Notes under the pieces: model-generated
What the model was told of the DNA's origin: nothing
Seen by the model: only the letters and a program-made list of their open reading frames with translations
Databases searched by the model: none
Program-made: the position numbers and the translations under genes
Source: Azoarcus sp.
GTDB taxonomy: Bacteria > Pseudomonadota > Gammaproteobacteria > Burkholderiales > Rhodocyclaceae
DNA: 64,000 nucleotides
Assembly: GCA_020725025.1 (NCBI GenBank)
Contig: DYFV01000002.1
Coordinates: 62,001-126,000 of the forward strand
Direction of reading: 5' to 3'
Shown here: in pieces, positions 6,448 to 38,697 of the stretch
Position numbering within the stretch: position 1 is the stretch's first letter
Layout of the letters: each line of letters opens with the position of its first letter

Positions 6448-6455
6448 GGCGGCGA

Positions 6456-24929: not shown

Positions 24930-25037
24930 GGCGGTCTCCTTGGGGAAGTGGCGCAGTGCCGTTGTGCCCCATGAGTCGCGGCCCGAGCGGATTCGGTTCA
25001 CGCCGGTTTTCCAGGGGGTGGGGGCTGGCATTCGTCG

Positions 25038-25139
25038 CCCGGATGGAGGCAGGGAATCGGCGGCCGGCGCTGACGTGGCACGGCCATGGACCCTTGCGCC
25101 CCCGTTCCCGGATTCCGCCGGGGCTCCATCCAGGCTACG
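25038..25139. repeat. Dispersed palindromic repeat, copy 3 (inverted pair)
   Basis: A degraded unit at 25038-25060 (CCCGGATGGAGG ... GGGAATCGG) and a well-kept inverted unit at 25107-25139 (CCCGGATTCCGCC, GGGGCTCCATCCAGGCTACG). It fills the gap between the OmpA-type gene and the hydrolase gene, which contains no other recognisable element. Confidence 0.72.
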
Positions 25140-25151
25140 TGCCGGCACGGG

Positions 25152-25967
25152 TCAGCGGGCGTCGAGCCGCTCGGCCAGTCCCGCGAGGATCGCCGGCCAG
25201 CGCTCCTGCCAGCAGCACACGTGGTCGTAGCCGGCGATCTCCACCACCTCGACCCCGGGCCGGCCCTGCGCGTAGCCCTGCACCAGCGCCGGCGGGACGG
25301 TGGTATCGCGGCTGCCGACGTAATGGCGCTGCAGCACGGCAGCCGGCAGGGAAGGCCGCAGGCGCGGATCGAGGGAACCGGTGAGCGGACTGTAGCGGTG
25401 CAGGCGGCTCCAGCCCGCGACGTCGAGGTTCGCCCCCACGGTTACCACCGCCACGGCCTGCGGGAAGCGCTCGGCAAGCAGCACGGCCAGCGTGCCGCCG
25501 CCGCTATGGCCGAAGAAGACGAGCCGCGGCGGTGGCCGCCCGGCGAGGATACGGGCGAGGGCCGCTGCCATGCTGTCGACCACTTCCGGGGCGTAGCGGC
25601 GGTCGGTCCAGACCGCCGGCGCGCAGCGTACGTCCTGGAGGCCGAAGTGGCAGGGACGCCCCAGGTAGAGCGCCGGTCCCGCATCGAGGGCCATCAGCTC
25701 GAGCATGAGCGGCCGGCGCGGGGTCGGATCGGCCGCCACGTGGACCTCGGCCACCCACGGCGTGCCGTCGTGCTCGATGTAGACGTGCAGGATTCCACGT
25801 CCCGTGCCCGCCCGGGTGTAGACCAGATGACGGAAGGGCTCGCCGGCGACCACCTCGCGGGCGAAGCCGTGCGCCGCGGCACGCGCCTCGATGCGGGCGG
25901 CCGGGCTCGCGCAGGCGGCGAGCGCCAGAGCCGCCAGCGCCGCTGCCGCCGCCCCGCGTCCTGCCAT
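25152..25967 (-). CDS. Lipoprotein alpha/beta hydrolase
   Basis: A 271-residue protein with a lipoprotein signal ('AALALAACAS', lipobox Cys) and an alpha/beta hydrolase fold. The nucleophile elbow is 'VFFGHSGGGTLAVLLAERF' (Ser). Further on are 'YVGSRDTTVPPALV' (probable acid) and 'IAGYDHVCCWQERWP' (catalytic His). It should be a membrane-anchored esterase or lipase-like enzyme facing the periplasm. The ATG lies 2 bases after the stop of the autotransporter gene, so both are one operon. Substrate unknown. Confidence 0.8.
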   Translation of the reverse strand: MAGRGAAAAALAALALAACASPAARIEARAAAHGFAREVVAGEPFRHLVYTRAGTGRGILHVYIEHDGTPWVAEVHVAADPTPRRPLMLELMALDAGPALYLGRPCHFGLQDVRCAPAVWTDRRYAPEVVDSMAAALARILAGRPPPRLVFFGHSGGGTLAVLLAERFPQAVAVVTVGANLDVAGWSRLHRYSPLTGSLDPRLRPSLPAAVLQRHYVGSRDTTVPPALVQGYAQGRPGVEVVEIAGYDHVCCWQERWPAILAGLAERLDAR

Positions 25968-25969
25968 CC

Positions 25970-27304
25970 TCAGAACTCGCCGCGCACCCCGACCGTGAGC
26001 GCGTAGGCGGTGGTGTCCTCCATCCCCAGCACGGAATCGAGGGCGGCGAAGGCCGACAGCCCGCCGGGCATCTGCGTGCTCACGCCCACGGCCAGGGTGA
26101 AGAAGTTGCGATCGGGGTTTTCGGTAGGGATGACGAAAAAGGTGTTGAACGGATCGTGGGTGTACTTCGCGACGAGGGAACGGCTGTCGTTCTTGAACTC
26201 GTGGTTCCATTCGAGGGCGGCGTAAGGCACGAACACGCCGTAGCCGGTGCTGACCTCGGTGGACAGGCGCGCGCCCAGCGCGCTCTGCAGCGAGCGCGTG
26301 GTGCGCGAGCCGATGTCCAGCCCCAGCCCGGCATTGGGCTCCCGCTCGGTGAAATCGTCCACTTCCAGGTTGAGGTAGTCGACCCGTCCGTAGGGCGTGA
26401 CCGTGAGCCGGTTCATGCGCAGGTCGTAGCCGGCCCCGACGGTGGCGCTCCACTGCTGCCCATTCGTGTCGCCGCGCGCGGCGGTGTTGATGCCGAGCGC
26501 CGGCAGCACGATGTTGCGCCTGGTCTCGTAGTCCAGCCACGCGTAGCCGAGCTGGGCATCGACGTACCAGTCGCCGATATTGTAGGCGGCGTAGGCGGTG
26601 AGACCCCAGTTGTCCGACTCCACGTCCCCGGCATCGCGGCTGAAATCGACGTCGGTGCGCGACCACGACAGTGCCACACCCGCAGCCAGCTGATCGCTGA
26701 AGCGGTAGTCGACGCCGCCGGTGAGACCGTAGTCGTCGAAGTCGAAGCCGTCCTCGCGGCTCGTATCGTCGCGGTCGCCCGTGTTGTAGTTGACGTTGAG
26801 GAAGCCGCCCCAGGGCCCGGCCGCGATGCCGTCGGCCGCCGCCCCGCCGCCGCGGCGCACCCCTTCGGCCGCAGCCAGCGCCCGCCCCTGGGGGTCCGGT
26901 GCGGGTCCGGAGAAGAGCAGGCCGCGTCCGCCCGCTCGCAGGGCGAGCAGCCTTCCGTAGATGGCGTTGCGTGCAACCGTGGTGGTCGCAACGCGGCCCT
27001 GGGCATGCATCTCCTCGGCAGCCGCCGCCTGCATGGTGCCGGGCACCAGGCTGGGCGTCGTCCGCGCCAGTCCACGCATGGCACTACACGTGGTGAAGAG
27101 TCGATCCTGTCCCTCCGTCCGGTTCAGAGGGGCAAGCTGCGGACACAGGGTGTCGATGGCCACCGCGGTCGGTCGCTGCACCTCGTTCAGTCCGGGCACG
27201 GCACTGAGCACCGGACTGGCTTGCCCAAAGGCCGCCCCCGCCCACGCGCATGCCGACGCGGCGACCACCGCCGCCTTGCCCACCTTCATTCCGTTGGTAT
27301 TCAT
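25970..27304 (-). CDS. Autotransporter (type Va) with short passenger
   Basis: A 444-residue protein: signal peptide about residues 1-27 ('ACAWAGAAFGQASP'), a short helical passenger with two Cys ('LCPQLAPLNRTEGQDRLF' ... 'TTCSAMRGLA'), a glycine-rich linker, and a C-terminal autotransporter beta-domain from about residue 165. The barrel shows alternating aromatic strands ('GGFLNVNYNTGDRDDTSRED', 'VDYRFSDQLAAGVALSWSRT') and ends in Phe ('VGVRGEF'). The GGGAGG ribosome site supports the start at 27304. The passenger does not match an enzyme I recognise. It is followed directly by the lipoprotein hydrolase. Confidence 0.85.
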   Translation of the reverse strand: MNTNGMKVGKAAVVAASACAWAGAAFGQASPVLSAVPGLNEVQRPTAVAIDTLCPQLAPLNRTEGQDRLFTTCSAMRGLARTTPSLVPGTMQAAAAEEMHAQGRVATTTVARNAIYGRLLALRAGGRGLLFSGPAPDPQGRALAAAEGVRRGGGAAADGIAAGPWGGFLNVNYNTGDRDDTSREDGFDFDDYGLTGGVDYRFSDQLAAGVALSWSRTDVDFSRDAGDVESDNWGLTAYAAYNIGDWYVDAQLGYAWLDYETRRNIVLPALGINTAARGDTNGQQWSATVGAGYDLRMNRLTVTPYGRVDYLNLEVDDFTEREPNAGLGLDIGSRTTRSLQSALGARLSTEVSTGYGVFVPYAALEWNHEFKNDSRSLVAKYTHDPFNTFFVIPTENPDRNFFTLAVGVSTQMPGGLSAFAALDSVLGMEDTTAYALTVGVRGEF

Positions 27305-27371
27305 TCGCGCCTCCCGCTCGACGTTCCACGGCCCCCGCCGCACTTCCCTCAATCTAGCCCAGCAACATTGG

Positions 27372-27401
27372 ATTCCAAGTCGGTTAAGATATTGTTGTCA
27401 A
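27372..27401 (-). promoter_or_regulatory. Candidate sigma-70 promoter of the autotransporter operon
   Basis: On the minus strand TTGACA (27396-27401) and TGGAAT (27372-27377) are 18 bases apart. The -35 is a perfect match. A TTGTTG...CAACAA dyad (27392-27397 with 27420-27425) overlaps the -35 and could be an operator. It lies in the divergent gap 27305-27746, which otherwise contains only the ECF-type promoter. Confidence 0.5.
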
Positions 27402-27512
27402 AGGACTTTAGCCGATTAGCAACAAGACGGTAGGCGATCTGCCCAACTCCAGGTATTGGCACTTCCGGAACTTCCTACACGCATTCCGGGACCGGACGGA
27501 GGGCTTTTTTTC

Positions 27513-27540
27513 GAACCGTTTTTCCATGCCCGGCGACCCA
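27513..27540 (+). promoter_or_regulatory. Candidate ECF-sigma promoter upstream of caspase-like gene 1
   Basis: GAACCG (27513-27518), 14 bases, then GCGACCCA (27533-27540). The same two boxes, with 14 or 15 bases between, precede the ECF sigma gene and both small repeat-protein genes in this cluster. This copy has one mismatch in the downstream box. It is 206 bases before the ATG. An alternative is that this copy is coincidental. Confidence 0.5.
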
Positions 27541-27746
27541 TGCCACAGCGCGCAGCGCGGGCCTGCCGCGGGTGCTATACGTTAAGTGCCGAGACTGGCG
27601 GCGCCGCGCCCACGCGTGCCCGCCCCGTCGCCGGACGGCATGTCCGGAGCGGCTCCGGGCCTGGGTCCGGTACGTGTGACGCCGTGTTCGTGGCAATAAG
27701 GGCGGCGGCTGTGCGCGTCCGGAATCGCACCAGGAGGAGTTCGGCA

Positions 27747-29738
27747 ATGAAACCAACCGCTCGACTTGGAGGGACCCTGTTTCGCCTCGCGCTGGTCCTG
27801 ACCGCCGCGATGGGGGGATCGCTCGCCGGCTGGTCGGCGACGCCTCCGCTACCGTCCGGCACCCAGGAGGTGGACCGCTTTCTCATCGTCGATTGCCTGC
27901 TCCCCGGTCAGGTGCGCCGTCTGGGTACCGCCCTGACCTACCTCACCCCGCGCCGGCCGGCCAAGCTCACCGCCGAGGAATGCGCGCTGCGCGGAGGCGA
28001 GTACGTCGCCTACGACCGCGCCGATCTCGCCACTGCACTGGCCGTGTGGCTGCCGCTCGCCGAAAAGGGCGACCCCCAGGCCCAGACCTACGCCGGCGAG
28101 CTCTACGAGCGCGGTGTCGGCGGCGTCGCCCCCGATTACGCACGGGCGGCGCAGTGGTACCGCAAGGCCGCCGAACAGGGCCATCCGCGCGCGCGCATCA
28201 ATCTCGGTTTCCTCTACGAAAAAGGCCTGGGGGTTTCCAAGGACCCCGTCACGGCCCTGAACCTCTATCGCCAGGCGGCGGGAATCGAAGAGGCGGTCGC
28301 GCTCGACGGCACCGCCGTCTCCGCCGAGCGCGAGGCGCAGCTCGAGGCCCTGCGGCGCGAGCTCGACGACACCCGGCGCCAGCTCGAGGAGGCGCAGGAG
28401 CGCCTGCGCCGCCAGCAGAGCGAGCACCGTTCCGAGCAGGAACGCCTGCAGCGCGAGCGCGACGAGGCGCGCGCGAGCGGCTCGGCCGCGGAGCGGGCCC
28501 GGGTGGCGGAGCTGGAGGCGCGACTCGCCGAGCGCGAGGCGGCGCTCGCCCGCCAGGCGGCCGAGGCGGCCCGTCTGGAGCAGGCGGCCCAGCGCCATCA
28601 GGCCGAGCTCGCGAGACTGCAGGCCCAGCGCACCGAAGCGCCGCCCGCGCCGAAGGTGGCACTCGCTCCGCCCAGCATCCAGCTCATCGACCCGCCCGTG
28701 GTAACGATGCGTAGTCCGCTCACCGTGCAGTTGCGCGGCGCACCCGCCATGCGCGAGATCGTGGGCAAGGTCACCGCGCCGGCGGGGCTGCTGTCTTTCA
28801 CGGTGAACGACCGCAGCGAGCAGGTCGACGCCCAGGGACTCTTCAAGACCAGTCTGCAACTGGGCGGCGAGCCGACACCGGTGACGCTGGTGGCGGTCGA
28901 CCGCCGCGGCAAGCGCGCGGCGCTCGAGTTCACCCTGGTGCCGGAGGCGCTGCAACAGGCGGCGCCGGACAAGCCGCAGGTACCCGACCTCGAATTCGGG
29001 CACTACCACGCGCTGGTGATCGGCAACCAGAACTACCGGGAGCTGCTCTCGCTCGACACCGCTATCAACGACGCGCGCGCCGTGAGCGAGGTCCTCGCGG
29101 ACAAGTACGGCTTCAAGGTCACCACGCTCACCGACGCGACCCGCTACGACATCCTGTCCGCCCTCAACAAGCTGCGTGCCCAGCTCACGGAGAAGGACAA
29201 CCTGCTCATCTACTACGCCGGCCACGGGGAGCTCGACCGCGCCAACCTGCGCGCCCACTGGCTGCCGGTCGACGCCGAGCTCGACAGCAACGCCAACTGG
29301 ATCTCCAGCGTGGCCATCACCGACATCATCAACGCCATGTCGGTGAAGCACGTGCTGATCGTGGCCGACTCCTGCTACTCGGGCGCGATGACCCGCTCGT
29401 CGATCGCCCAGCTGCAGCCGGGACTGTCCGACGAGTCGCAGGTGACCTTCCTCAAGGCGCTGGTGCAGGCGCGCGCCCGCACCGTGCTCACCTCCGGCGG
29501 CGTCCAGCCCGTCATGGACGGCGGCGGCGGCGAGCACTCGGTGTTCGCGCGCGCCTTCCTGGAGGTGCTGCGTGAGAACGCCGGCGTGCTGGAAGCCGCG
29601 CGCCTGTACCGGGAAGTGGCCGCGCGCGTGCTGCTGCTGGCCTCGCGCTTCCAGGTGGAGCAGAAACCCGAGTACGCGCCGCTGAAGTTCGCGGGCCACG
29701 AGTCGGGGGACTTCGTCTTCGTGCCCGCGGGCACCTGA
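27747..29738 (+). CDS. Caspase-like protein with Sel1 repeats and coiled coil
   Basis: A 663-residue exported or anchored protein. N-terminal hydrophobic signal (about 11-31), Sel1-type repeats at about 92-178 ('YARAAQWYRKAAEQGHPRAR'), a long Glu/Arg-rich coiled coil at about 185-295, a beta-rich linker, and a C14 caspase-like domain from about 415. The catalytic dyad is His493 ('IYYAGHGELD') and Cys543 ('VADSCYSGAM'). Such orthocaspase-type domains usually cleave after basic residues. The start at 27747 has an AGGAGG site. It lies just upstream of the ECF sigma gene and begins a plus-strand cluster. Target proteins unknown. Confidence 0.85.
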   Translation: MKPTARLGGTLFRLALVLTAAMGGSLAGWSATPPLPSGTQEVDRFLIVDCLLPGQVRRLGTALTYLTPRRPAKLTAEECALRGGEYVAYDRADLATALAVWLPLAEKGDPQAQTYAGELYERGVGGVAPDYARAAQWYRKAAEQGHPRARINLGFLYEKGLGVSKDPVTALNLYRQAAGIEEAVALDGTAVSAEREAQLEALRRELDDTRRQLEEAQERLRRQQSEHRSEQERLQRERDEARASGSAAERARVAELEARLAEREAALARQAAEAARLEQAAQRHQAELARLQAQRTEAPPAPKVALAPPSIQLIDPPVVTMRSPLTVQLRGAPAMREIVGKVTAPAGLLSFTVNDRSEQVDAQGLFKTSLQLGGEPTPVTLVAVDRRGKRAALEFTLVPEALQQAAPDKPQVPDLEFGHYHALVIGNQNYRELLSLDTAINDARAVSEVLADKYGFKVTTLTDATRYDILSALNKLRAQLTEKDNLLIYYAGHGELDRANLRAHWLPVDAELDSNANWISSVAITDIINAMSVKHVLIVADSCYSGAMTRSSIAQLQPGLSDESQVTFLKALVQARARTVLTSGGVQPVMDGGGGEHSVFARAFLEVLRENAGVLEAARLYREVAARVLLLASRFQVEQKPEYAPLKFAGHESGDFVFVPAGT

Positions 29739-29748
29739 CGGAAATTTC

Positions 29749-29776
29749 GAACCGGATGATGTGACGCTGCGACTCA
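29749..29776 (+). promoter_or_regulatory. Candidate ECF-sigma promoter (autoregulatory)
   Basis: GAACCG (29749-29754), 14 bases, GCGACTCA (29769-29776), ending 17 bases before the sigma factor ATG. It matches the motifs before the two small repeat-protein genes, including flanking GAT after the first box. Its location before the sigma gene itself is what ECF factors that control their own transcription show. Confidence 0.7.
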
Positions 29777-29793
29777 CGGGTGACGAAGCGAGC

Positions 29794-30366
29794 ATGGAAC
29801 TCTCCAACGACGAGATCTTCATCCTGCTGGCGCAGGTGCGGGCGGGCGACGAGGGGGCGATGCGCACCCTCTACCAGGCCTTCAGCCGCAAGGTGTACGC
29901 CTTCGCGCTGAACCGGATGCGGGATCCCCAGCAGGCCGAGGAGGTCGTGGTCGACACGATGTACGAGGTGTGGCGCCATCCGGACCGCTTCCGGGGGGCC
30001 TCGCGGTTTTCCACCTGGCTCATCGGGATCGCCCGCCACAAGATGCTCAGCGCGCTGCGCGGCCGCGATCCGCAGCACGAGGACGTGGACGAGATGGGCG
30101 AGACGCTCGCTTCCGAGGATCCGGGTGCCTTCGAGCTCCTGGCCGAGCGCCAGCGTCGCGAAGGGGTTCAGCACTGCATGGGCAAGCTGAGCGACGAACA
30201 CCGCGAATGCCTGCACCTGGTGTTCTACGAGGGGATGTCGGTGGGCGAGGTGGCGAGCGTGCAGGGATGTCCCGAGAACACCGTGAAGACGCGCCTCTTC
30301 TACGCGCGCCAGAAGATCCGGAACTGTTTGAGACTGCTACTGGAGAAAGAAGGTGAAGAACGATAG
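29794..30366 (+). CDS. ECF-type RNA polymerase sigma factor
   Basis: A 190-residue sigma-70 family factor with only regions 2 and 4. Region 2: 'LYQAFSRKVYAFALNRMRDP', 'AEEVVVDTMYEVWRHPDRFR' and 'FSTWLIGIARHKMLSALRGR'. Region 4: 'LSDEHRECLHLVFYEGMSVG' and 'CPENTVKTRLFYARQKIR', the DNA-recognition helix. The ATG at 29794 is used; a GTG at 29761 lies within the candidate promoter. The gene overlaps the anti-sigma gene by 14 bases. It probably drives the four GAACCG-N14/15-GCGACYCA promoters in this cluster. Confidence 0.93.
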   Translation: MELSNDEIFILLAQVRAGDEGAMRTLYQAFSRKVYAFALNRMRDPQQAEEVVVDTMYEVWRHPDRFRGASRFSTWLIGIARHKMLSALRGRDPQHEDVDEMGETLASEDPGAFELLAERQRREGVQHCMGKLSDEHRECLHLVFYEGMSVGEVASVQGCPENTVKTRLFYARQKIRNCLRLLLEKEGEER

Positions 30367-31039
30367 CGAAAGCCGAAGACGGTTCCGGGAGCTCCTGCCC
30401 TGGCATGTGAACGGCACCCTGAGCGATGACGAGCGCGACTGGGTGGAGGACTACCTGCGCGAACACCCCGACGCCCGCGCCGAGCTGCGCTGGCAGGAGG
30501 GTCTGCAGACGCAGCTGCGGCAGACCGTGCCGTCGCCGCCCACCCCCGACGTGGGGCTCGAGCGCTTCATGGCGCGCATCCATGCCGAGACGGCCGGCGC
30601 GCAGGCACGCCCGGCCGCCCGTGCCGCGGCCCACCCCGGCTTCGCCGACCGGCTGCGCGACTTCCTCGCCCGCTGGCAGCTCACGCCGGCGCTGGCGCTG
30701 GCCGCAACCGTGGTCGTGGCCCAGGCGGCCATCATCGGCGCCCTCCTCGTGGGCCAGCAGGAGGCCGATCCCGAGTTCGCCACGGTGCGCTCGGTCGCGC
30801 CCGGTCAGCTGGTGACCGGACCGGTGCTGCAGCTCACCTTCCGGGCCGACGCGACGGAGGCCCAACTGCGCCAGCTCCTCGTGCAAATCGGGGGCACCCT
30901 GGTGGGCGGGCCGGGTCAACTGGGCAACTACCTGGTGGCGGTGCCGCCCGAGCGCGTCGAGCAGGTTTCGCAACAGCTCGCCGGCAATGCGCTGGTGGAG
31001 GACGTGGCCGTCCTGCAGCAGATGCCGGCGCGGGAATGA
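30353..31039 (+). CDS. Membrane anti-sigma factor, zinc-less ZAS-like domain
   Basis: A 228-residue single-span protein overlapping the sigma gene. The N-terminal domain 'FRELLPWHVNGTLSDDERDW' and 'VEDYLREHPDARAELRWQEG' has the layout of an anti-sigma zf-HC2 (ZAS) domain, but the HxxxCxxC cysteines are absent, so zinc is probably not bound. A hydrophobic helix at about 110-135 ('LALAATVVVAQAAIIGALLV') is followed by a periplasmic domain of about 90 residues ending 'GNALVEDVAVLQQMP', which resembles a small ferredoxin-like sensor fold. Role: hold the sigma factor at the membrane until an envelope signal arrives. Confidence 0.82.
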   Translation: MKNDSESRRRFRELLPWHVNGTLSDDERDWVEDYLREHPDARAELRWQEGLQTQLRQTVPSPPTPDVGLERFMARIHAETAGAQARPAARAAAHPGFADRLRDFLARWQLTPALALAATVVVAQAAIIGALLVGQQEADPEFATVRSVAPGQLVTGPVLQLTFRADATEAQLRQLLVQIGGTLVGGPGQLGNYLVAVPPERVEQVSQQLAGNALVEDVAVLQQMPARE

Positions 31040-31055
31040 AGATTGGAGGTGGATC

Positions 31056-31940
31056 ATGGCCGCACGCCTGGCATCGATGCTGCCCACCCTGTGCGCCGTC
31101 GTCCTGTCGACCGCCGCCGCGCTGACCCACGCCCCGCCCGGGCACGCCGCCGACGGGACGGGCGATGAGCAGCGCATCGCGCTGATCATCGGCAATAGCG
31201 ACTACGCCCGCAGTCCGCTCAAGAACCCGGTGAACGACGCCCGCGCCATGGCCGAGGCCCTGGAGCGGCTGGGGTTCGAGGTGGAACTGCAGGAGAACGC
31301 GACCCTCACCGAGATGATCGGGGCGCTTCGGCGCTTCACCGCTGCCGCCAGCGAAAACGACGTGCGGCTCTTCTACTACGCCGGCCACGGGATCCAGGTG
31401 AAGGGCCGCAACTATCTCATCCCGGTGGACGCCGAGCTGATGAGCGAGGACGAGGTGGGCTTCAAGAGCGCCGACGTGAACGAGCTGCTCGAGCGGCTCG
31501 GGCAGCTGCGCAGCGGGCTCAACATCATGATTCTCGACGCCTGCCGCAACAATCCCTTCGCCAACCTGAACTTCGTCGGTCCGGACGGGCGCCTGGTGCG
31601 CTTTCGCGGATCCGGCCGGCCCGGGCTCGCGCCGGTGGACGCCCCGGCGGGCACCCTGGTCGCCTTCGCCACCGCCCCCGGCTCGGTGGCGATGGACGGG
31701 GGCAACCAGCGCAACAGCCTGTACACCCGCCACCTGCTCGACCACATCGGCGCCCCCGGCCTGCCGGTGGAGCAGCTCTTCAAGCGCGTGCGCATCGCCG
31801 TGGCGCAGGAGACGAAGTGGCTGCAGGTCCCCTGGGAGAGCAGCAGCCTGATGGGCGACTTCTGCTTCCGCACCCCGCCCGACGGGCAGTGCTCGTTCGG
31901 CGGCGGGAGTCTCGTCGACACGTCCCGATTCGCCCGCTGA
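31056..31940 (+). CDS. Secreted caspase-like protein (C14 family)
   Basis: A 294-residue protein with a signal peptide (about 1-31, ending 'PGHAAD') and a single caspase-like domain: 'IALIIGNSDYARSPLKNPVN', 'DARAMAEALERLGFEV', His111 in 'LFYYAGHGIQVKGRNYLIPV', Cys163 in 'IMILDACRNNPF'. Both catalytic residues are present. The end has two extra Cys ('FCFRTPPDGQCSF'). It lies 16 bases after the anti-sigma gene with a GGAGG ribosome site, so it is likely in the sigma operon. Unlike the first caspase-like gene it lacks Sel1 and coiled-coil parts. Confidence 0.87.
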   Translation: MAARLASMLPTLCAVVLSTAAALTHAPPGHAADGTGDEQRIALIIGNSDYARSPLKNPVNDARAMAEALERLGFEVELQENATLTEMIGALRRFTAAASENDVRLFYYAGHGIQVKGRNYLIPVDAELMSEDEVGFKSADVNELLERLGQLRSGLNIMILDACRNNPFANLNFVGPDGRLVRFRGSGRPGLAPVDAPAGTLVAFATAPGSVAMDGGNQRNSLYTRHLLDHIGAPGLPVEQLFKRVRIAVAQETKWLQVPWESSSLMGDFCFRTPPDGQCSFGGGSLVDTSRFAR

Positions 31941-31978
31941 CGGGCAGTCGGGCCCAGGCGTCGAGGACGAGGTGCGTC

Positions 31979-33193
31979 GTGAACATTGCCGCCACCCCGG
32001 TCGCCGCCCTGGCGCTCGCCGCAGCGCTGTTCGGCGGCTGCGCCACCCCCGAGCCGGCCGCGCCACCGCAGCCGCCCGTAGCGGCCGATCCGGAGCTCGG
32101 CGCGCCGCGAGCCTACACGCCGACTCCCTCCCCGGAGGAGGAGCCGGCCGCCCCGCCGGCTGTCGCCGCCGCCACGCCCTGCCCGCCGGAGTTCTCCGGC
32201 TCGTGCTACCCGGTGTGGTTCGGCACCAACCGCAGGCCGGTGGATCCGGCCGACCACGGCAAGGGCTACACCGGCGAGTTCGACGAGCGCACGCACTTCG
32301 GCAAGCGCATCGTCTACATCCCGGAGAGTCATCGCCCGGGTGAGCTCGGCTCGCCCTTGTGGCGGCGGATCCTCACCGGGCGCGACGACCGCATCCGGCT
32401 GGGTCCGGCGACCCACCTCGACAGGGAGCAGTTCACGCGCGAAGTCCGCGAGGTGCTCGCCCGGCTCGACCCGACCGAGCGCAACATCCTGGTCTACATC
32501 CACGGCTTCAACACCAGCTTCGAGGAGGCGGCCCGCCGCGCCGCGCAGCTGGGCTTCGACCTGCGGGTGCCCGGCCTCACCGCCTTCTACAGCTGGCCGT
32601 CCCGGGGCAGGCTCTCCGGCTACCTCACCGATCTGGCCGCAGTGGAGGCGAGCGAGGAGCACATCGCCCGCTTCCTGGTGCGGGTGGCCGAGCTGGGCGG
32701 CCCCGGCAAGGTCCACATCATCGCCCACAGCATGGGCAACCGGGGACTGCTGCGCGCGATGCACCGCGCCACTGCGCGGGCGGCGCTCGCCGCGGGCGTT
32801 CGCTTCGGACAGATCTTCCTCGCCGCCCCGGACGTGGATGTGGCGCTCTTCCGCCAACTCGCCGGGATCTACCCCAAGGTGTCGGACCGCACCACGCTCT
32901 ACGTCGCCGACGAGGACAAGGCGCTCGCCGCCATGGCCTGGCTCGCCCAGGGCGAAAAGGCGGGCAGCGCCCCGCCGCTCATCGTGCTGCCCGGCATCGA
33001 CACCATCCGGGTGAAGGGCAGCGGCCTCTTCCAGCTTGGCCACAGCTACGTCGCGGAGGATCTCGACGTGATCGAGGACATCCGCACCCTGCTCTACTGG
33101 CAGGAACCGCCCGAACTGCGCGGCCACCGCAACGGCTGGCCCGTGCCGGACACGAGCGCGCAGGCCGGAGGGGCGTGGGTCATCGGCGAGTGA
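31979..33193 (+). CDS. Lipoprotein alpha/beta hydrolase, DUF900 family
   Basis: A 404-residue lipoprotein (lipobox 'ALFGGCATPEP') with a Pro-rich linker and a DUF900 esterase/lipase-like domain. 'NILVYIHGFNTSFEEAARRA' holds the oxyanion-hole HG, and 'VHIIAHSMGNRGLLRAM' the nucleophile Ser; 'GHSYVAEDLDVIEDIRTLLY' probably supplies the His. The GTG start at 31979 follows a GAGGACGAGG site. It follows the second caspase by 38 bases and is probably the last gene of the sigma operon before the next ECF promoter. It acts in the periplasm on an unknown ester or amide. Confidence 0.82.
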   Translation: MNIAATPVAALALAAALFGGCATPEPAAPPQPPVAADPELGAPRAYTPTPSPEEEPAAPPAVAAATPCPPEFSGSCYPVWFGTNRRPVDPADHGKGYTGEFDERTHFGKRIVYIPESHRPGELGSPLWRRILTGRDDRIRLGPATHLDREQFTREVREVLARLDPTERNILVYIHGFNTSFEEAARRAAQLGFDLRVPGLTAFYSWPSRGRLSGYLTDLAAVEASEEHIARFLVRVAELGGPGKVHIIAHSMGNRGLLRAMHRATARAALAAGVRFGQIFLAAPDVDVALFRQLAGIYPKVSDRTTLYVADEDKALAAMAWLAQGEKAGSAPPLIVLPGIDTIRVKGSGLFQLGHSYVAEDLDVIEDIRTLLYWQEPPELRGHRNGWPVPDTSAQAGGAWVIGE

Positions 33194-33236
33194 ACACCGC
33201 GCGCCGCCCTCTCCGAAAAAAAATTGCAATCTGTTC

Positions 33237-33265
33237 GAACCGGATCGCCACGTCCCTGCGACTCA
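33237..33265 (+). promoter_or_regulatory. Candidate ECF-sigma promoter of repeat-protein gene 1
   Basis: GAACCG (33237-33242), 15 bases, GCGACTCA (33258-33265), then the shared tail CAGATGGGGCA. An A-rich run lies about 10 bases upstream, as an UP element might. The whole block is repeated before the second paralogue at 33726. Confidence 0.75.
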
Positions 33266-33333
33266 GGGTCAGATGGGGCACGAATCGCAGCCTTCATCTG
33301 CAACCTCACCCAATCGAGACAGGAGATCCGACC

Positions 33334-33600
33334 ATGAAGACCATCGCCAAGACCCTCGCCATCGCCACCCTCGGTTTCGTCGGCGTCACCGGCGCATTCG
33401 CGGCCGACCAGCTCAACGCCAACAACAACCGCGCGACCCAGACCAACAGCGGCGCGCGCGCCGAGCAGAAGATCAAGATCGGCTTCCTGGACGGCAAGCT
33501 CTTCGGCAGCGCGCGGGTGAACGCGAACAACAACCGGGTCACCCAGAGCAACAGCGGCGCGCGCGCCAAGCAGGAAGTCGAGATCGGCGTCTACAAGTAA
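33334..33600 (+). CDS. Small exported repeat protein 1 (curlin-like?)
   Basis: An 88-residue protein: signal peptide about 1-24 ('LGFVGVTGAFAADQ'), then two copies of a 24-residue repeat 35 residues apart (27-50 and 62-85). The repeat reads [LV]NANNNR[AV]TQ[TS]NSGARA, then [EK]Q, with alternating charged and hydrophobic residues to the end. Asn/Gln/Gly spacing recalls curlin repeats but the Gln-Gln spacing is 9 rather than 11, so homology is unproven. The gene has its own candidate ECF promoter and terminator and is followed by a near-identical copy. A CsgG-like lipoprotein is encoded 1 kb downstream. Possible role: secreted fibre or matrix subunit. Confidence 0.8.
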   Translation: MKTIAKTLAIATLGFVGVTGAFAADQLNANNNRATQTNSGARAEQKIKIGFLDGKLFGSARVNANNNRVTQSNSGARAKQEVEIGVYK

Positions 33601-33621
33601 GCCCGCCGCCCTTCCTGCCCC

Positions 33622-33649
33622 GAAACAGCCCGGTCCGCCGGGCTGTTTC
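33622..33649 (+). terminator. Intrinsic terminator-like hairpin after repeat protein 1
   Basis: A perfect 12-bp stem, GAAACAGCCCGG (33622-33633) and CCGGGCTGTTTC (33638-33649), with a TCCG loop, followed by CGTTT. The same hairpin follows the second paralogue with paired base changes that keep the stem. Confidence 0.7.
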
Positions 33650-33725
33650 CGTTTACGGCCCACGGGCCGTCGGGCCTCCGGACTCCGCACTGCCCCGCAG
33701 ATTCACCGACAAGCCGAAATTTCTT

Positions 33726-33754
33726 GAACCGGATCGCTGCCGTTCTGCGACTCA
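33726..33754 (+). promoter_or_regulatory. Candidate ECF-sigma promoter of repeat-protein gene 2
   Basis: GAACCG (33726-33731), 15 bases, GCGACTCA (33747-33754), then GGACAGATGGGGCA. It has the same spacing and tail as the promoter of the first paralogue, so promoter and gene were duplicated together. Confidence 0.75.
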
Positions 33755-33830
33755 TGGACAGATGGGGCAGACAACGCCGCCTCCATCTTCGCCCCCAACC
33801 CCGGCAACACAGACACGAAGGAGACACATC

Positions 33831-34097
33831 ATGCAAACCATCGCCAAGGCCCTCGCCATCGCCACCCTCGGTTTCGTCGCCACCACCGGCGCGTTCGCGG
33901 CCGACCAGCTCAACGCCAACAACAACCGCGTGACCCAGACCAACAGCGGCGCGCGGGCCGAGCAGAAGGTGAAGATCGGCTTCCTGTCCGGCAAGCTCTT
34001 CGGCAGCGCCACGGTGAATGCCAACAACAACCGCGTCACCCAGAGCAACAGCGGCGCGCGCGCCAAGCAGGAAGTGGAGATCGGCGTCTACAAGTAA
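33831..34097 (+). CDS. Small exported repeat protein 2 (curlin-like?)
   Basis: An 88-residue paralogue of the protein at 33334-33600, differing at only a handful of positions: MQ for MK at the start, VATT for VGVT in the signal peptide, V for A in repeat 1, K-V-K for K-I-K, S for D and T for R in the linker. The two 24-residue repeats (27-50, 62-85) are otherwise the same. Changes are conservative and spare the repeat core, so both copies seem to be under selection. It has its own promoter and terminator. Likely made in large amounts and exported through the Sec system. Confidence 0.82.
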   Translation: MQTIAKALAIATLGFVATTGAFAADQLNANNNRVTQTNSGARAEQKVKIGFLSGKLFGSATVNANNNRVTQSNSGARAKQEVEIGVYK

Positions 34098-34117
34098 GCC
34101 ATCCGCCCCTCCTGCCC

Positions 34118-34147
34118 CGACGCAGCCCGGTCCGCCGGGCTGCGTCG
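34118..34147 (+). terminator. Intrinsic terminator-like hairpin after repeat protein 2
   Basis: A perfect 13-bp stem, CGACGCAGCCCGG (34118-34130) and CCGGGCTGCGTCG (34135-34147), TCCG loop, followed by TTC. Compared with the hairpin at 33622 both arms changed together, evidence that the stem is functional. Confidence 0.72.
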
Positions 34148-34226
34148 TTCGCGGGAGCCCGCCTACCGGGAAACCGGGGTGCCCCGCTGGGTGCTGCCAC
34201 CTACACTGCATTTCACGGAGTCCGTT

Positions 34227-34541
34227 ATGAAGCCAGTCAAATGCAAGATCCTGCCGCTCGCGCTCGTCGCGCTGATGGGCGGCGCCCACCTGGCCCATGC
34301 GGCCAGCTCCCAACCGATTCCCATCGAGGCGGAAGATCGCGCCAAGCTCGCACGGGTGAAAGCCCGCGGCAACGCGGCCTCGCGTGCGTTCGCCGGCGCG
34401 GGCAAGGGCGCGCGGGACGACGGGGATGCTTGCAGCATCGCCATCGGCAACGTGGACACCGACGGGCGCGGGCGCGGTCCGCGCGAAGTGAACATCTTCA
34501 TCCCGGGCGACATCTTCCAGATCGACAACCGGTGCCGCTAG
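34227..34541 (+). CDS. Small exported protein of unknown function
   Basis: A 104-residue protein with a clear signal peptide (about 1-26, 'LVALMGGAHLAHAASS'). The mature part has an Ala/Lys/Arg-rich helix ('AKLARVKARGNAASRAFAGA'), then 'DACSIAIGNVDTDGRGRGPR' and 'EVNIFIPGDIFQIDNRCR'. The two Cys, 30-odd residues apart, could form a disulfide. I do not recognise the family. It lies between the repeat proteins and the CsgG-like gene, 40 bases from the latter, so it may be an accessory export or nucleation factor. A TACACT -10-like box is at 34202-34207. Confidence 0.7.
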   Translation: MKPVKCKILPLALVALMGGAHLAHAASSQPIPIEAEDRAKLARVKARGNAASRAFAGAGKGARDDGDACSIAIGNVDTDGRGRGPREVNIFIPGDIFQIDNRCR

Positions 34542-34581
34542 CCCGGATACGACGCCCAGGCCGAAACGAGGAGGCAGTCAG

Positions 34582-36150
34582 ATGACCCTCACAGGACAAG
34601 GCCGCCGCGCGCGGCTCTTCGCACCCCTGGCGGTGAGCCTCGCCTTGGTGGGGTGCGCCGCGATGGACGTGAAGACCGACACCGTCAAGCAGACGGAGGA
34701 GATCCGCAAGGGCCCCGAATCGGTGCCGCGACGCTCGATCACGAGCTTCTCCGACGCGCTGCGCTGCATGGACACCACGCTCGCCAACTACGGCGTGCGC
34801 GACGTCTCGGTGCTGGTCGAGGACATCGTCGACCAGACCAAGAAGGTGAACGCCGGCACCAAGGACATGCTGATCACGGCGGTGTCCGAGATGACCGCAC
34901 GGAGCCGGGCCATCCGGCTGGTGGCGTTCGGGCTGGATTCGAGCAACCTGATCACCTTCCTGCAACAGGCCGAAAGCAAGAGCGCCTACGCGGTGATCCC
35001 CGAGTTCGACATCAAGGGCTCGATCACCCAGCTCGACGAGAACCTCATCCAGAAACAGGCGGACGCCGGCCTCGGCTTCGATTCGGGCGGCAGCGTGGGA
35101 CTGGGCTTCGGCTACGCCAAGGACGCCGCATCCAACATCCTCGCGCTCGACCTCACCATGCTCGACACCAGCGACTTCTCCATCCTGCCGGGCGTGACTT
35201 CGCGCAACGCGGTGGTGATCTTCAAGGAAGGCAAGGGTTTCGACGCCGACGCGACGATCCGCAAGTTCGGCATCAACTACAACCTGAGCCTGTCGCGCTC
35301 GGAAGGGCAGTCGCAGGCGCTGCGCACGCTCGTGGAGCTCGCCACGGTGGAGCTCTTCGGCCGGCTCACGCGCACCCCCTACTGGATCTGCCTGGGCTCG
35401 ACCGGCAGCGAGCCGGAGATCCTGCGCGAGATCGAGGACTGGTACCACGCCTTCGCCACCAGGCCGCCCCGGCTCACCACCTGGTTCCAGGGCCAGTTGC
35501 GCCTGCGCGGCTACTATCACGGCCCGGTCGACGGCGTCGACAGCCCCGAGCTCGCCCAGGCCGCGGCCGCCTACCGGCGCGCGCTGGGGCTCCCCGAGGA
35601 GGGCGGGCTCGACCTGGCGTTCTTCACCGCCTATCTCAACGCCGATCATGCGAAGGTGATGGCCGCCTATCCGCCCCCCGCCCCACCCGTGGCGCCGGAC
35701 TCCGGCGGCTCCGGCCCGGCTTCCCCGGCCCTCGCGCTGTCGGTGGGCACGCCGGACGGCCAGCAGCGCTTCCGCCGCGGCGAGCTGATCAACCTGGTGG
35801 TGCAGGCGAGCCGCGACGCGCACGTCCACTGCTACCTGCAGGACGAGAACGGTGCGATCCAGCGCTTCTTCCCCAACCGCTTCGCGCGCGATGCGCTGGT
35901 GCGTGCCGGCGTCCCGCTGCGGCTGCCGGGCGAGATGCGCTTCCAGTTCATCGCCAACGACCGGGGCGTGCGCGAGACGGTGGCCTGCTTCGGCGCCGAG
36001 CGCGACCTCCAGGCCCAACTGCCCGGCGTGGTCGTGGGGACCGACTTCGAGGACCTGCCCGTCACCTCGCTCGAGCAGGTCCGTACAGCCTTCCGGCGCG
36101 CAGCCGGCAACGAACTTGCGGAGGCCACTTTCCATGTCGACATCCGTTGA
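34582..36150 (+). CDS. CsgG-like lipoprotein with peptidoglycan-binding and DUF4384 domains
   Basis: A 522-residue lipoprotein (lipobox 'LALVGCAAM', Cys25). Residues about 50-265 resemble the CsgG/HfaB outer-membrane channel family: 'LVEDIVDQTKKVNAGTKDML', 'SAYAVIPEFDIKGSITQLDE' and a Gly-rich 'GLGFDSGGSVGLGFGYAKD' that fits the membrane hairpin region. Residues 300-352 look like a peptidoglycan-binding domain ('QLRLRGYYHGPVDGVDSPEL'). Residues 383-470 match DUF4384 ('FRRGELINLVVQASRDAHVH', 'GAIQRFFPNRF'). Predicted role: secretion pore or envelope anchor for the small repeat proteins. The CsgG assignment is by pattern and moderate. Confidence 0.7.
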   Translation: MTLTGQGRRARLFAPLAVSLALVGCAAMDVKTDTVKQTEEIRKGPESVPRRSITSFSDALRCMDTTLANYGVRDVSVLVEDIVDQTKKVNAGTKDMLITAVSEMTARSRAIRLVAFGLDSSNLITFLQQAESKSAYAVIPEFDIKGSITQLDENLIQKQADAGLGFDSGGSVGLGFGYAKDAASNILALDLTMLDTSDFSILPGVTSRNAVVIFKEGKGFDADATIRKFGINYNLSLSRSEGQSQALRTLVELATVELFGRLTRTPYWICLGSTGSEPEILREIEDWYHAFATRPPRLTTWFQGQLRLRGYYHGPVDGVDSPELAQAAAAYRRALGLPEEGGLDLAFFTAYLNADHAKVMAAYPPPAPPVAPDSGGSGPASPALALSVGTPDGQQRFRRGELINLVVQASRDAHVHCYLQDENGAIQRFFPNRFARDALVRAGVPLRLPGEMRFQFIANDRGVRETVACFGAERDLQAQLPGVVVGTDFEDLPVTSLEQVRTAFRRAAGNELAEATFHVDIR

Positions 36151-36499
36151 ACCCCTGCGCCGGTGGGCGCTGTCGGGCCTCGTCGCGGCGCTCGTGGTGC
36201 CGCTGGCCGCGGCCGGCGTCACCAGCAAGGAGGAGAACGCGGCGTCCGCCCCGGTCGCACAGCCCAAGGCGAAGGCGAGCGCCAAGCCCGCGGCGGCGCC
36301 TCCCGGCTACCGCTTGCGCTGCTGGCAGGAAGGTCGGCTCATCCTCGAGGAGACGACGCGCGACGCCCCGCCCGAGTCGGCCCTGGACGTGCTGCGCCTG
36401 CACGACCGCAACGGCGGCACCTTGCTGCTGCTGGAGACGGCCAACGCGACCTGCCTGCTCAACGCGGCGACGACGCCCCCCGCCAAGCCGAAACCCTGA
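36134..36499 (+). CDS. Small exported protein of unknown function
   Basis: A 121-residue protein whose start overlaps the CsgG-like gene by 17 bases, so translation is coupled. It has a signal sequence (about 10-27, 'ALSGLVAALVVPLAAAG'), an Ala/Lys/Pro linker, and a compact domain 'GYRLRCWQEGRLILEETTRD' ... 'LLLLETANATCLLN' with two Cys. No family is recognised. Tight coupling suggests it works with the CsgG-like lipoprotein, perhaps in the place that CsgE/CsgF take in curli systems, but there is no sequence support for that. Confidence 0.72.
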   Translation: MSTSVEPLRRWALSGLVAALVVPLAAAGVTSKEENAASAPVAQPKAKASAKPAAAPPGYRLRCWQEGRLILEETTRDAPPESALDVLRLHDRNGGTLLLLETANATCLLNAATTPPAKPKP

Positions 36500-36576
36500 G
36501 ACACATTCCCGTAACCGAACGGCTCGACGCGCGCCGCCACGCGGCGCGCGTCGGCCGGCATTCGAGGAGACGATTC

Positions 36577-37284
36577 ATGAACCCGATCCGCCCCCTTCTT
36601 CCGTTCTGCCTCGCGGCGCTGCTCGGCGCCGCCCCCCTTTCCGCCGCCGCCGGGACGCTGGCGAGCGAATCGCGTCCGGTGGCCGATTTCGACCGCGTGG
36701 TGCTGCGCGCGAGCGGCGAGCTCCTGCTGCGCCAAGGCTCACGCGAGGGCCTGCGCATCGAGGCCGAGCCGCGGCTGCTGCCGGTCATCGCCAGCGAGAT
36801 CCGCGACGGCACCCTCTACCTGGAGTTCCGGGCTCCGCAGGTGAATACCTTGCAGCCGGTGCGTTTCCACCTCACCGTGAAGGAGATCGAGTCGCTATCG
36901 TCCGAGGCGAGCGCCGACATCCACGCCGGCCCGCTGACCGGGCGCCGCTTCGCGCTCGAGCTCGCCGGCAGCGGGAACGTGGACATCGCCGCGCTCGAGT
37001 TCGAGGAAAGCCGTACCCGCATCACCGGCTCGGGCCGGGTCGCGATCGGCGGCGGCCACATCGGCAGCCAGACCGTGGAGATCGACGGTGCCGGCGACTA
37101 CCTCGCGGGCGAGGCGGCGAGCGCGCGCACGCGGGTCCGGATCCTCGGCAGCGGCAACGTGGAAGTCGAGGCGCGCGAGCGGCTGGTGGCCGAGATCAGC
37201 GGCAGCGGCGACGTGCGTTATCGCGGCAGCCCGCGGGTGGAAGAGCGCATCAGCGGCGCGGGAAGCGTGGAACCGGTCGACTGA
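36577..37284 (+). CDS. DUF2807 (head GIN domain) exported protein
   Basis: A 235-residue protein with a signal peptide (about 1-25, 'LLGAAPLSAAAG') and a DUF2807/GIN domain: 'VADFDRVVLRASGELLLRQG', then repeated beta-helix-like strands each with 'GSG', 'GAG' or 'GSGDV' turns ('ELAGSGNVDIAALEF', 'AEISGSGDVRYRGSP'). Family function is unknown; structures are right-handed beta-helices in the envelope. It is the last gene of the plus-strand cluster and is closed by a strong palindrome. Confidence 0.85.
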   Translation: MNPIRPLLPFCLAALLGAAPLSAAAGTLASESRPVADFDRVVLRASGELLLRQGSREGLRIEAEPRLLPVIASEIRDGTLYLEFRAPQVNTLQPVRFHLTVKEIESLSSEASADIHAGPLTGRRFALELAGSGNVDIAALEFEESRTRITGSGRVAIGGGHIGSQTVEIDGAGDYLAGEAASARTRVRILGSGNVEVEARERLVAEISGSGDVRYRGSPRVEERISGAGSVEPVD

Positions 37285-37287
37285 GCC

Positions 37288-37313
37288 GCCGCCGGGCGCA
37301 TGCGCCCGGCGGC
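37288..37313. terminator. Perfect 26-bp palindrome, probable terminator
   Basis: A perfect palindrome centred on CAT|G (GCCGCCGGGCGC and its complement), right after the DUF2807 stop and before the convergent gene ending at 37358. As RNA it makes an 11-bp hairpin with a 4-base loop in either direction. No T-tract, so it may act as a transcript-end stabiliser. Confidence 0.55.
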
Positions 37314-37357
37314 CTGCAGGAGCGGCGGAAGCCGCGAACCGGTGCGCAAGGGAAGAT

Positions 37358-37684
37358 TCAGTGCAGTCCGGACAGCGCGGCAGCCGCCTCCTCGCGGGTG
37401 AAGAAGCGGCCGTCGCGCACGAAGCCCGAGACCACCGAGGCGCGCACCTTGGCCACCCGGCCGCAGGCATGGCGCGCCAGCACGAGTTCGTCGGGCAGGC
37501 CGTCGAGCAGGTGGAAGGGTGCCGGCCGGCCGTCGCCGAAGCGCGAAAGGTGGATGGTGCGGGTGCGGGTATCGAGGAAGGCGGGCCGGAAGCCGATGTC
37601 GCGGTTCTCCGCACTCACGCCGCCGCTGCCTTCGAAGCGGGCGTTTTCCGATTCGAGCTTCCGGGGGGTCATCGTGACGTTCAT
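37358..37684 (-). CDS. Conserved hypothetical protein, 108 residues
   Basis: A cytoplasmic protein without signal or membrane segment. It contains 'NRDIGFRPAFLDTRTRTIHL', 'LLDGLPDELVLARHACGRVA' and ends 'GFVRDGRFFTREEAAAALSG', a layout I have no family name for. The start at 37684 has a GGAG ribosome site; a second ATG is at 37672. It is on the minus strand, 122 bases after the heme-binding protein gene. Function unknown. Confidence 0.65.
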   Translation of the reverse strand: MNVTMTPRKLESENARFEGSGGVSAENRDIGFRPAFLDTRTRTIHLSRFGDGRPAPFHLLDGLPDELVLARHACGRVAKVRASVVSGFVRDGRFFTREEAAAALSGLH

Positions 37685-37806
37685 CGTGGCGCTCCTGGAG
37701 GGCGCCGGCTTCGTGTTCCGGCCGGCTCGTGCATGGGTCGCACGCGCCACACCGCAGGTTCGAAAAGTCGTGAGGCGGCGCTCGGGACGAGCCCGTCGTC
37801 ACCCCC

Positions 37807-38697
37807 TCACCGGACGGCGGAGAAGTCGAACTGCAGGGGCTCGGACACGCTCTTGTGCTCGGCCGATCCCCTGTTGAACACCGCGATCTGACCGAGCAGG
37901 CGATCGCCCGGCTTGAACGCAACGTCGTCCTGATGACCGGTCGCGAGCGCACGGCCGAACTCCAGCTGCCAATGGCCCGCTTTCCAGGCGCCCTTGGCCG
38001 CCACGTCGGCCGCACTGCCCGTGGCCTTCGCGGGCTCGAACGAAACCAGCCGCTCGCCCTTCTTCTCGCGGGGTCGCGGCAGCATCTCGTAGGGCGCCGT
38101 GCCCGCATCGCGGCGCTTGGCGATGTAGATCACCGGCCCGCCCTTCATCTCGTACTCGGCCACGGACTCGAGCATCCTGGTGGTCACGTGGTGGGTCGAG
38201 TCCTCGGCGACGCCGGACGGATTTGTGCGTGCGGCCGACCAAAGCCACACGTCCACCTTGTAATCACGGGTGGTGAGCATCGAGCGGTCGAAGTCGCCTG
38301 CCATGTGGAAGCGCACCGCGAACATGTCCTCGTACTGGTTCTCGCGCTGGTACTTCTCGCCACGCCAGGCCCACTCCCTGTGCCGGATGTCCGCGGCGTC
38401 GTCGGGATAGCGGACGGCGAGGAAGAAGCGCCCCGCCGCCACGCCGGCTTTCAGCTCCACCGTGAGATCGCCGGTCACGTTGCGGTCGCCCGCCGGCTCG
38501 AGACCGAACTTGGCGCGCTCCTCCCGCTCGAGCGCGGGCTTGACCGGCACCTTCACCCAGCCGTCGCGCCCCCACTCGGCCAGATCGCCGTCCATCTTGG
38601 GCGCGGCGCCGAGCGCGTGCACCGCAACGACCTGGGGCGCCTGCGCCGCCGCGGCGAAGGGCAGGCTCACGAGAAGGGACACGAACAGCCTTTTCAT
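37807..38697 (-). CDS. Ethylbenzene-dehydrogenase-related heme-binding protein
   Basis: A 296-residue periplasmic protein with a signal peptide (1-18, 'LLVSLPFAAAAQA'). The body fits the EB_dh (ethylbenzene dehydrogenase gamma/cytochrome c-552-like) family of b-type heme-binding beta-sandwiches: 'ALGAAPKMDGDLAEWGRDGW', 'FFLAVRYPDDAADIRHREWA', 'VDVWLWSAARTNPSGVAEDS' and 'GHWQLEFGRALATGHQDDVA'. It is 29 bases downstream of a cupredoxin gene in the same direction. It may carry electrons for a periplasmic oxidoreductase, but no molybdenum catalytic subunit is in the window. Confidence 0.78.
   Translation of the reverse strand: MKRLFVSLLVSLPFAAAAQAPQVVAVHALGAAPKMDGDLAEWGRDGWVKVPVKPALEREERAKFGLEPAGDRNVTGDLTVELKAGVAAGRFFLAVRYPDDAADIRHREWAWRGEKYQRENQYEDMFAVRFHMAGDFDRSMLTTRDYKVDVWLWSAARTNPSGVAEDSTHHVTTRMLESVAEYEMKGGPVIYIAKRRDAGTAPYEMLPRPREKKGERLVSFEPAKATGSAADVAAKGAWKAGHWQLEFGRALATGHQDDVAFKPGDRLLGQIAVFNRGSAEHKSVSEPLQFDFSAVR

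Follow-up and report, generated by a model that had tools for sequence, protein, structure and literature searches.

The described systems closest to the locus reported here are the curli system (csgBAC-csgDEFG) and the HfaABD system of Caulobacter. HfaA has been called curlin-like, and its surface location is reported to depend on HfaB (PMC6707917). For curli, Dueholm et al. give the minimal repeat as X6QXGX2NX10 and report two true curli systems in Burkholderiales (PMC3521004). Here we analyze a gene block in a 64,000-nucleotide stretch of an Azoarcus sp. genome (assembly GCA_020725025.1, contig DYFV01000002.1, positions 62,001 to 126,000 of the forward strand), which we call the window and in whose numbering positions are given. 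The block includes eleven plus-strand genes, named A to K, that encode two caspase-like proteases (A and D), an extracytoplasmic function (ECF) sigma factor (B), a membrane anti-sigma factor (C), a hydrolase lipoprotein (E), two near-identical repeat proteins (F and G), two small exported proteins (H and J) on either side of a lipoprotein (I), and an adhesin-like protein (K). We consider it probable that they form an ECF-controlled export system for surface proteins that resembles the curli and holdfast systems. Among the open-licence PubMed Central titles and abstracts listed, none describes such a cluster.

Results

Lipoprotein I has a CsgG/HfaB-type domain

We compared a profile of 21 I homologs with a profile of 21 HfaB homologs, the latter gathered with the NCBIfam HfaB model. 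Using hhalign, the two aligned over 243 columns with a probability of 98.8% (E 9e-17), from the lipobox to nearly the end of HfaB; the probability reached at most 0.9% when the columns were shuffled (50 shuffles). Against Escherichia coli CsgG alone the probability was 69.9% over 192 columns. The HfaB model itself was matched by 13 of the 21 I homologs at E<=0.01 (best 5e-7). The channel domain of I is therefore related to the CsgG/HfaB superfamily by full-length profile homology. An earlier sequence-only reading of this DNA, made by a model without database searches, had called I a CsgG-like lipoprotein; Pfam does not support the call, but the HfaB comparison bears it out. The peptidoglycan-binding-like domain of I falls just below the Pfam cut-off. 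A search of the I profile against solved structures at E<=10 returned 16 sequences, mostly through this domain, and no CsgG; LolA (0.041) and three weak matches to cytochrome-oxidase assembly factors also appeared.

The closest named relatives of I, at 68-71% identity, are in three Rhodocyclaceae metagenome-assembled genomes (MAGs). Two Azospirillum plasmids (NZ_CP029832.1 and NC_016587.1) carry I homologs at 34-37% identity, annotated as DUF4384 proteins. A separate protein in the Azoarcus genome (G000:C31:24485-24970, L048) exceeds the CsgG Pfam cut-off, with 30.9 bits.

The neighborhood of I is conserved in relatives

Alignment of I identified homologs in 18 of 399 genomes of the order, this one included. 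A match in G123 (L010, E 0.005) looks unrelated and was removed from all counts. We searched with phmmer for the other proteins of the block at 22 loci outside the window, which comprise the I loci of the order genomes, three MAG loci and G044. Beside I we found a repeat protein related to F and G at 12 loci (weakly in L040), H at 12, J at 10, an OmpA-like protein at 10 and K at 6. The regulatory half was found less often, with a close ECF sigma factor at 4 loci, A at 3 (E below 1e-100), and C and D at 1 each. Because contig ends truncate several loci, these counts are lower bounds. By inspection, L036, L044 and L046 have repetitive exported proteins upstream of I that the profile had missed; those of L044 and L046 (family f49) are of another repeat type and end in NGCQACN.

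The repeat profile matched in 8 of the 399 order genomes, all 8 among the 18 with an I homolog. Since the profile was derived from neighbors of I, the informative part of this result is its absence elsewhere. In a class-wide sample it matched this genome alone (1/369).

Two combinations recur in relatives: (i) repeat protein, small cysteine-containing protein and I; and (ii) ECF sigma factor, anti-sigma factor and caspase. This is the conserved co-occurrence on which the sequence-only reading depended. One MAG locus (L119) holds the hydrolase and autotransporter genes that lie to the left of A (Table 1) together with A, B, C, D and OmpA, and L120 and L121 hold parts of this set. In the MAGs, the F/G-H-I-J-K half is on contigs separate from the sigma half, starting inside or just before the repeat gene. 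The contigs of L006 and L007 start within a repeat gene. The sigma gene and I are present in one locus in G171, G205, G244 and G426, which belong to two other families. As a specificity control, all window open reading frames (ORFs) of >=70 amino acids, antisense shadow ORFs included, were compared with the relatives' loci. Matches fell within 24210-37877, except for two ORFs (5500-6705 and 60284-61207).

Subunit-like repeat proteins of relatives carry curli-type repeats

Among eight longer repeat proteins of relatives, seven contain the motif Q-x-G-x-x-N, in 6, 6, 4, 4, 6, 12 and 4 copies versus 0.14-1.17 expected by shuffling. The copies are spaced 30-32 or 35 residues apart, with one gap of 160 in L037, a protein whose 4 copies were also reached by the best of 2000 shuffles. 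The repeat protein of L017 has no copy, and its units are longer by one residue. In F and G the frame [LV]NANN...Q...SG...Q...IG persists as two degenerate units. Curlin_rpt (PF07012) was matched neither by F at 0.1 nor by eight relatives at E<=1 (G was not among the proteins scanned).

A shared promoter motif probably links the block to its sigma factor

We wrote the motif found upstream of several genes of the block as GAACC-N16/17-CGAC(T/C)CA. The window contains 6 matches, versus a mean of 0.025 and a maximum of 1 in 200 dinucleotide shuffles; the pattern was drawn up after viewing the window sites, so this count is not independent, and those from other genomes are. The 5.44-Mb genome contains 9 matches, 6 of them in the block, and none to the reversed pattern. 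The six sites stand 45-234 bp upstream of the OmpA-like gene, A, B, F, G and a gene for a 108-amino-acid protein (Table 1), and those upstream of F and G have GAACCGGATCGC...TGCGACTCA in common. The proposal of the sequence-only reading that shared promoter motifs tie these genes to the local sigma factor agrees with these counts.

Of the genomic matches outside the block, one (L050, G000:C25:5874-5901) is a good extended match upstream of a patatin-like phospholipase gene, which is likely a distant member of the regulon. Another, at the end of contig C132 (L057), lies in a 55-bp exact copy of window 33237-33291, which is sequence from upstream of F, so a further F-like copy may have been lost in assembly. 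The match on C23 (L049) looks like chance, as its surroundings are unlike those of the other sites, and we rejected it.

The three Rhodocyclaceae MAGs contain 18 exact matches (9, 5 and 4), versus 3 for the reversed control (0, 3 and 0). Eight of the 18 are 2.6-5.2 kb from the sigma gene, some directly upstream of OmpA, and one of these eight falls within a coding region (L121). A ninth is upstream of the repeat gene in L006. The motif is also found at loci that have a related sigma factor and lack the export genes: in L133 it lies between sigma and anti-sigma genes, and in L136 it precedes the first sigma reading frame by about 75 bp.

A protease gene often follows the sigma and anti-sigma genes

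Orthologs of B in the three MAGs are 68-70% identical. C has a single membrane helix at about residues 115-133 by our hydropathy script. Its matches are all below cut-off (zf-HC2 at 0.013 and Fervidolysin_NPro-like at 0.0021 in Pfam; NCBIfam anti-sigma models at 38 bits), and we assigned it as an anti-sigma factor because of these matches, its position and its topology. B and C have the hallmarks of an ECF/anti-sigma pair, namely regions r2 and r4, an adjacent membrane anti-sigma factor and a predicted autoregulatory promoter, the last being a sequence match only.

The C-terminal domain of the anti-sigma factor (...IR..L...G..IV.GPGQLG.Y...) was recognizable in 10 of 10 aligned proteins, with a caspase or subtilisin following; L135 and L136 were left out of this alignment. 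It weakly resembles a subtilisin prodomain, and the Fervidolysin_NPro-like prodomain model matches one of five C homologs. Of 250 order genomes, 11 have a close B homolog. In the 7 of these that are not on the list of I-positive genomes, an anti-sigma homolog always adjoins a sigma gene. The next gene encodes an S8 subtilisin in L132, L133, L134 and L136, all from other genomes of the order; in L131 and L135 there was no protease among the genes scanned. A D-type caspase gene directly follows the anti-sigma gene in the window and in L035, L119, L120 and L121. This slot is thus occupied by a caspase-like protease in the window, G171 and the three MAGs; four other loci, from two families, have a subtilisin there.

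This pattern suggests that the C-terminal domain of the anti-sigma factor is a partner of the adjacent protease, and that caspase and subtilisin occupy the same slot. A bolder idea, which we offer tentatively and regard as somewhat unlikely, is a caspase-gated switch of transcription in the periplasm, in which this domain would bind the neighboring protease and be read or cut by it; the ECF sigma factor, freed through cleavage or release, would then turn on curli-like export.

Caspase-like proteins could also belong to a regulated cell-death or defense island, with A and D as effectors and the exported proteins as partners or triggers. Both are hit by the PADLOC caspase model (3.2e-13 and 8.5e-19), and the His/Cys dyad is intact in each (His493/Cys543 of A in 4/4 aligned homologs; His111/Cys163 of D in 5/5). 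However, both look exported, none of the eight other proteins scanned (G excluded) matches a defense model, and the motif links A and the B-D operon with OmpA and the repeat genes. We regard a defense island as very improbable.

Evidence against the export system, and two alternatives

Several observations weigh against an export system of the CsgG/HfaB type under local sigma control. (i) Window I has no match to the CsgG Pfam family (PF03783), to which 1 of 21 homologs matches (0.0018), and it scores 28.4 bits against the HfaB equivalog NF037935, which has a cut-off of 300. (ii) F, G and three 88-amino-acid MAG homologs carry no copy of Q-x-G-x-x-N, the repeat family profile matches neither CsgA nor CsgB significantly, and its alignment with HfaA, like that of H, is confined to the signal peptide. 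(iii) F and G have no counterpart in any of 16 same-genus genomes listed, which makes the cluster patchy. (iv) Eight relatives other than the MAGs give 12 exact motif matches, fewer than the 18 of the reversed pattern; G172 is the only one of them with the motif at the module, upstream of the repeat gene. (v) Close sigma homologs often occur without I: among their 11 genomes, 4 are I-positive, G106 adds a fifth through a weaker I homolog, and the remaining 6 show no I nearby. AlphaFold2 models, which we discarded as unusable, likewise gave no support, with a mean predicted local distance difference test score (pLDDT) of 48.4 for F (5 sequences) and, for I (4 sequences), a mean pLDDT of 42.1 and a predicted template modeling score of 0.30. 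The model of F has three short strands per repeat, at low confidence.

The I homolog of G106 scored below the threshold of our order-wide I search. It is 28% identical over 283 positions, lacks DUF4384 and lies about 8 kb from a 56%-identical sigma factor (L130). The same locus has K (DUF2807), an OmpA-like protein, a WD40-C14 protein, a two-partner-secretion transporter and a 107-amino-acid exported short-repeat protein.

One alternative is that I is a periplasmic lipoprotein of the CsgG superfamily that forms no pore. The block would then serve an envelope-maintenance response, with F, G, H and J as proteins that coat or strengthen the outer membrane or the periplasm, and with no polymer outside. 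Wall tethering of this kind suits the peptidoglycan-binding-like and DUF4384 domains of I and the OmpA-like partner, and the model of I is too poor to judge the presence of the CsgG membrane hairpins. We nevertheless find this alternative unlikely, because I aligns with HfaB over almost its full length and curli-motif repeat proteins are encoded upstream of I homologs in relatives.

A second alternative is that an export cassette happens to lie beside an independent ECF/anti-sigma/protease module for envelope sensing, and that the motifs of F and G were recently gained in this lineage. Points (iv) and (v) fit such an arrangement, in that the exact motif is absent from the module in seven of the eight non-MAG relatives and no I is found near six of the close sigma homologs; in addition, a sigma match at 1e-20 is lacking in 6 of 16 I-positive genomes. 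The loci of G171, G205, G244 and G426, in which sigma and I lie together, the G106 locus and the motif preceding the repeat gene in G172 all speak against it. We judge independent modules to be improbable, and retain a sigma-controlled export system as our preferred reading.

Layout of the block

Reading frames and Pfam verified the genes of the sequence-only reading, their order and their single strand, although it counted ten genes where we count eleven. It also held that nearly all products carry export signals; inspection and our hydropathy script predict an N-terminal signal or lipobox in 9 of 11, all except B and C. Its left limit, 27513, is the first base of a motif, but the block extends beyond its limits of 27513-37284, to 24336 on the left and to 37684 on the right (Table 1). 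The leftward extension, on the minus strand, encodes the OmpA-like protein, the hydrolase and the autotransporter, all three of which recur in relatives (the hydrolase in L119, L121 and L039). K homologs are found beside I homologs in L006-L009, L031, L035 and L130. With regard to the curli accessory proteins CsgE and CsgF, H and J match no Pfam family at 0.1. E has no homolog in the relatives' loci, and a homolog of the 108-amino-acid protein is absent from the three MAG loci searched.

Table 1. Genes and predicted sigma-factor motifs of the block, in window coordinates (aa, amino acids).
Feature	Position	Strand	Evidence and remarks
OmpA-like protein, 198 aa	24336..24929	-	Pfam OmpA 5.5e-21; homologs beside the system in relatives; own sigma motif
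Sigma motif (GAACC-N16-CGACTCA) upstream of OmpA	24972..24999	-	70 bp
Alpha/beta hydrolase, probable lipoprotein	25152..25970	-	Pfam Abhydrolase_1 7.2e-7 on 25152-25895; start inferred by eye
Autotransporter beta-domain protein	25973..27307	-	Pfam Autotransporter 3.1e-66; homologs in L032-L034, L119, L121
Sigma motif upstream of A	27513..27540	+	234 bp to start
A: exported Sel1 + coiled-coil + C14 caspase-like protease	27747..29738	+	Pfam C14 1.5e-23, Sel1 6.1e-18; two Sel1 repeats
Sigma motif upstream of B	29749..29776	+	45 bp; predicted autoregulation
B: ECF sigma factor	29794..30366	+	Pfam sigma-70 r2 2e-16, r4_2 1.6e-11
C: membrane anti-sigma factor with conserved C-terminal domain	30353..31039	+	Matches under cut-off, position, topology
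D: exported C14 caspase-like protease	31056..31940	+	Pfam C14 7.2e-45
E: DUF900 alpha/beta-hydrolase lipoprotein	~31979..33193	+	Pfam 7.6e-35; GTG start inferred
Sigma motif upstream of F	33237..33265	+	
F: exported 88-aa repeat protein	33334..33600	+	Two degenerate curlin-like repeats
Sigma motif upstream of G	33726..33754	+	
G: near copy of F, 88 aa	33831..34097	+	91% identity
H: exported small protein	34227..34541	+	C-x-I-x-IGN...N-x-C tail; homologs between repeat gene and I in relatives
I: lipoprotein	34582..36150	+	CsgG/HfaB-type domain (14-273), peptidoglycan-binding-like domain, DUF4384
J: exported small protein	36134..36499	+	RCWQ-x-GR motif; homologs downstream of I in relatives
K: exported DUF2807 (head GIN adhesin-like) protein	36577..37284	+	Pfam 1.2e-32
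108-aa protein without signal	37361..37684	-	Pfam: none; own sigma motif
Sigma motif upstream of 108-aa gene	37734..37761	-	77 bp

Discussion

The block resembles Caulobacter HfaABD in the alignment of I with HfaB and in the small exported genes upstream, since F to H precede I just as small exported genes precede the HfaB genes that we fetched. It differs in the C-terminal peptidoglycan-binding-like and DUF4384 domains of I, in the presence of an ECF sigma factor, an anti-sigma factor and caspases, and in having no recognizable HfaA homolog among the repeat family and H, given that their similarity ends with the signal peptide. With curli it shares the CsgG-type domain of I and, in the longer subunits of relatives, the minimal curli repeat. 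Unlike curli, its repeat proteins have no Curlin_rpt match, the repeats in the subunits of relatives are spaced at 30-32 or 35 residues, H and J match no Pfam family, the regulator identified in the block is an ECF sigma factor, and F and G themselves lack tandem X6QXGX2NX10 units. Because the channel domain is curli- and holdfast-like, yet neither the subunits nor the family models place the block in either system, we describe it as a variant of CsgG/HfaB-type surface-protein export. A and D resemble C14 caspase-like proteases and orthocaspases in their C14 domain with a His/Cys dyad, and by sequence the solved structures closest to D are chains of the MALT1 paracaspase. Unlike these known proteases, A and D look exported, and D is encoded straight after an anti-sigma gene.

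We propose the following mechanism. A signal would lead to inactivation of the membrane anti-sigma factor C, leaving sigma factor B active. B would bind the motif and transcribe its own gene with C, D and E, and also caspase A, the OmpA-like gene, the 108-amino-acid gene, the distant patatin gene, F and G; H to K would probably be co-transcribed behind G. F and G, putative secreted repeat proteins and kin of subunits with 4-12 curli-type repeats elsewhere, would exit the cell through a pore formed by I, whose first ~270 residues make up the CsgG/HfaB-type domain, and could then polymerize. The extra domains of I may act as a wall tether. H and J would act as small exported helpers, K and the autotransporter as adhesin-like partners, and the proteases would cut their own substrates. 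The product is most likely a curli-like or holdfast-anchor-like surface coat or, as we infer, fiber.

The regulatory and export parts of this mechanism are well supported, while fiber formation and proteolytic control are postulated. The same division applies to the sequence-only reading, which had proposed a stress-induced secreted fiber or matrix with proteolytic control: its sigma-linked promoters, its co-occurrence and its CsgG relation stand, reinforced by the HfaB alignment and the curli-type repeats of relatives, and its fiber or matrix, stress induction and caspase control are still conjecture.

If our reading is correct, the block would represent a new branch of the CsgG/HfaB export systems that has a subunit family of its own and a sigma factor with targets readable from the genome. 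Exported caspase-like proteases would gain a testable role and, should the caspase switch also hold, they would provide a case of caspase-gated sigma-factor signaling across the envelope.

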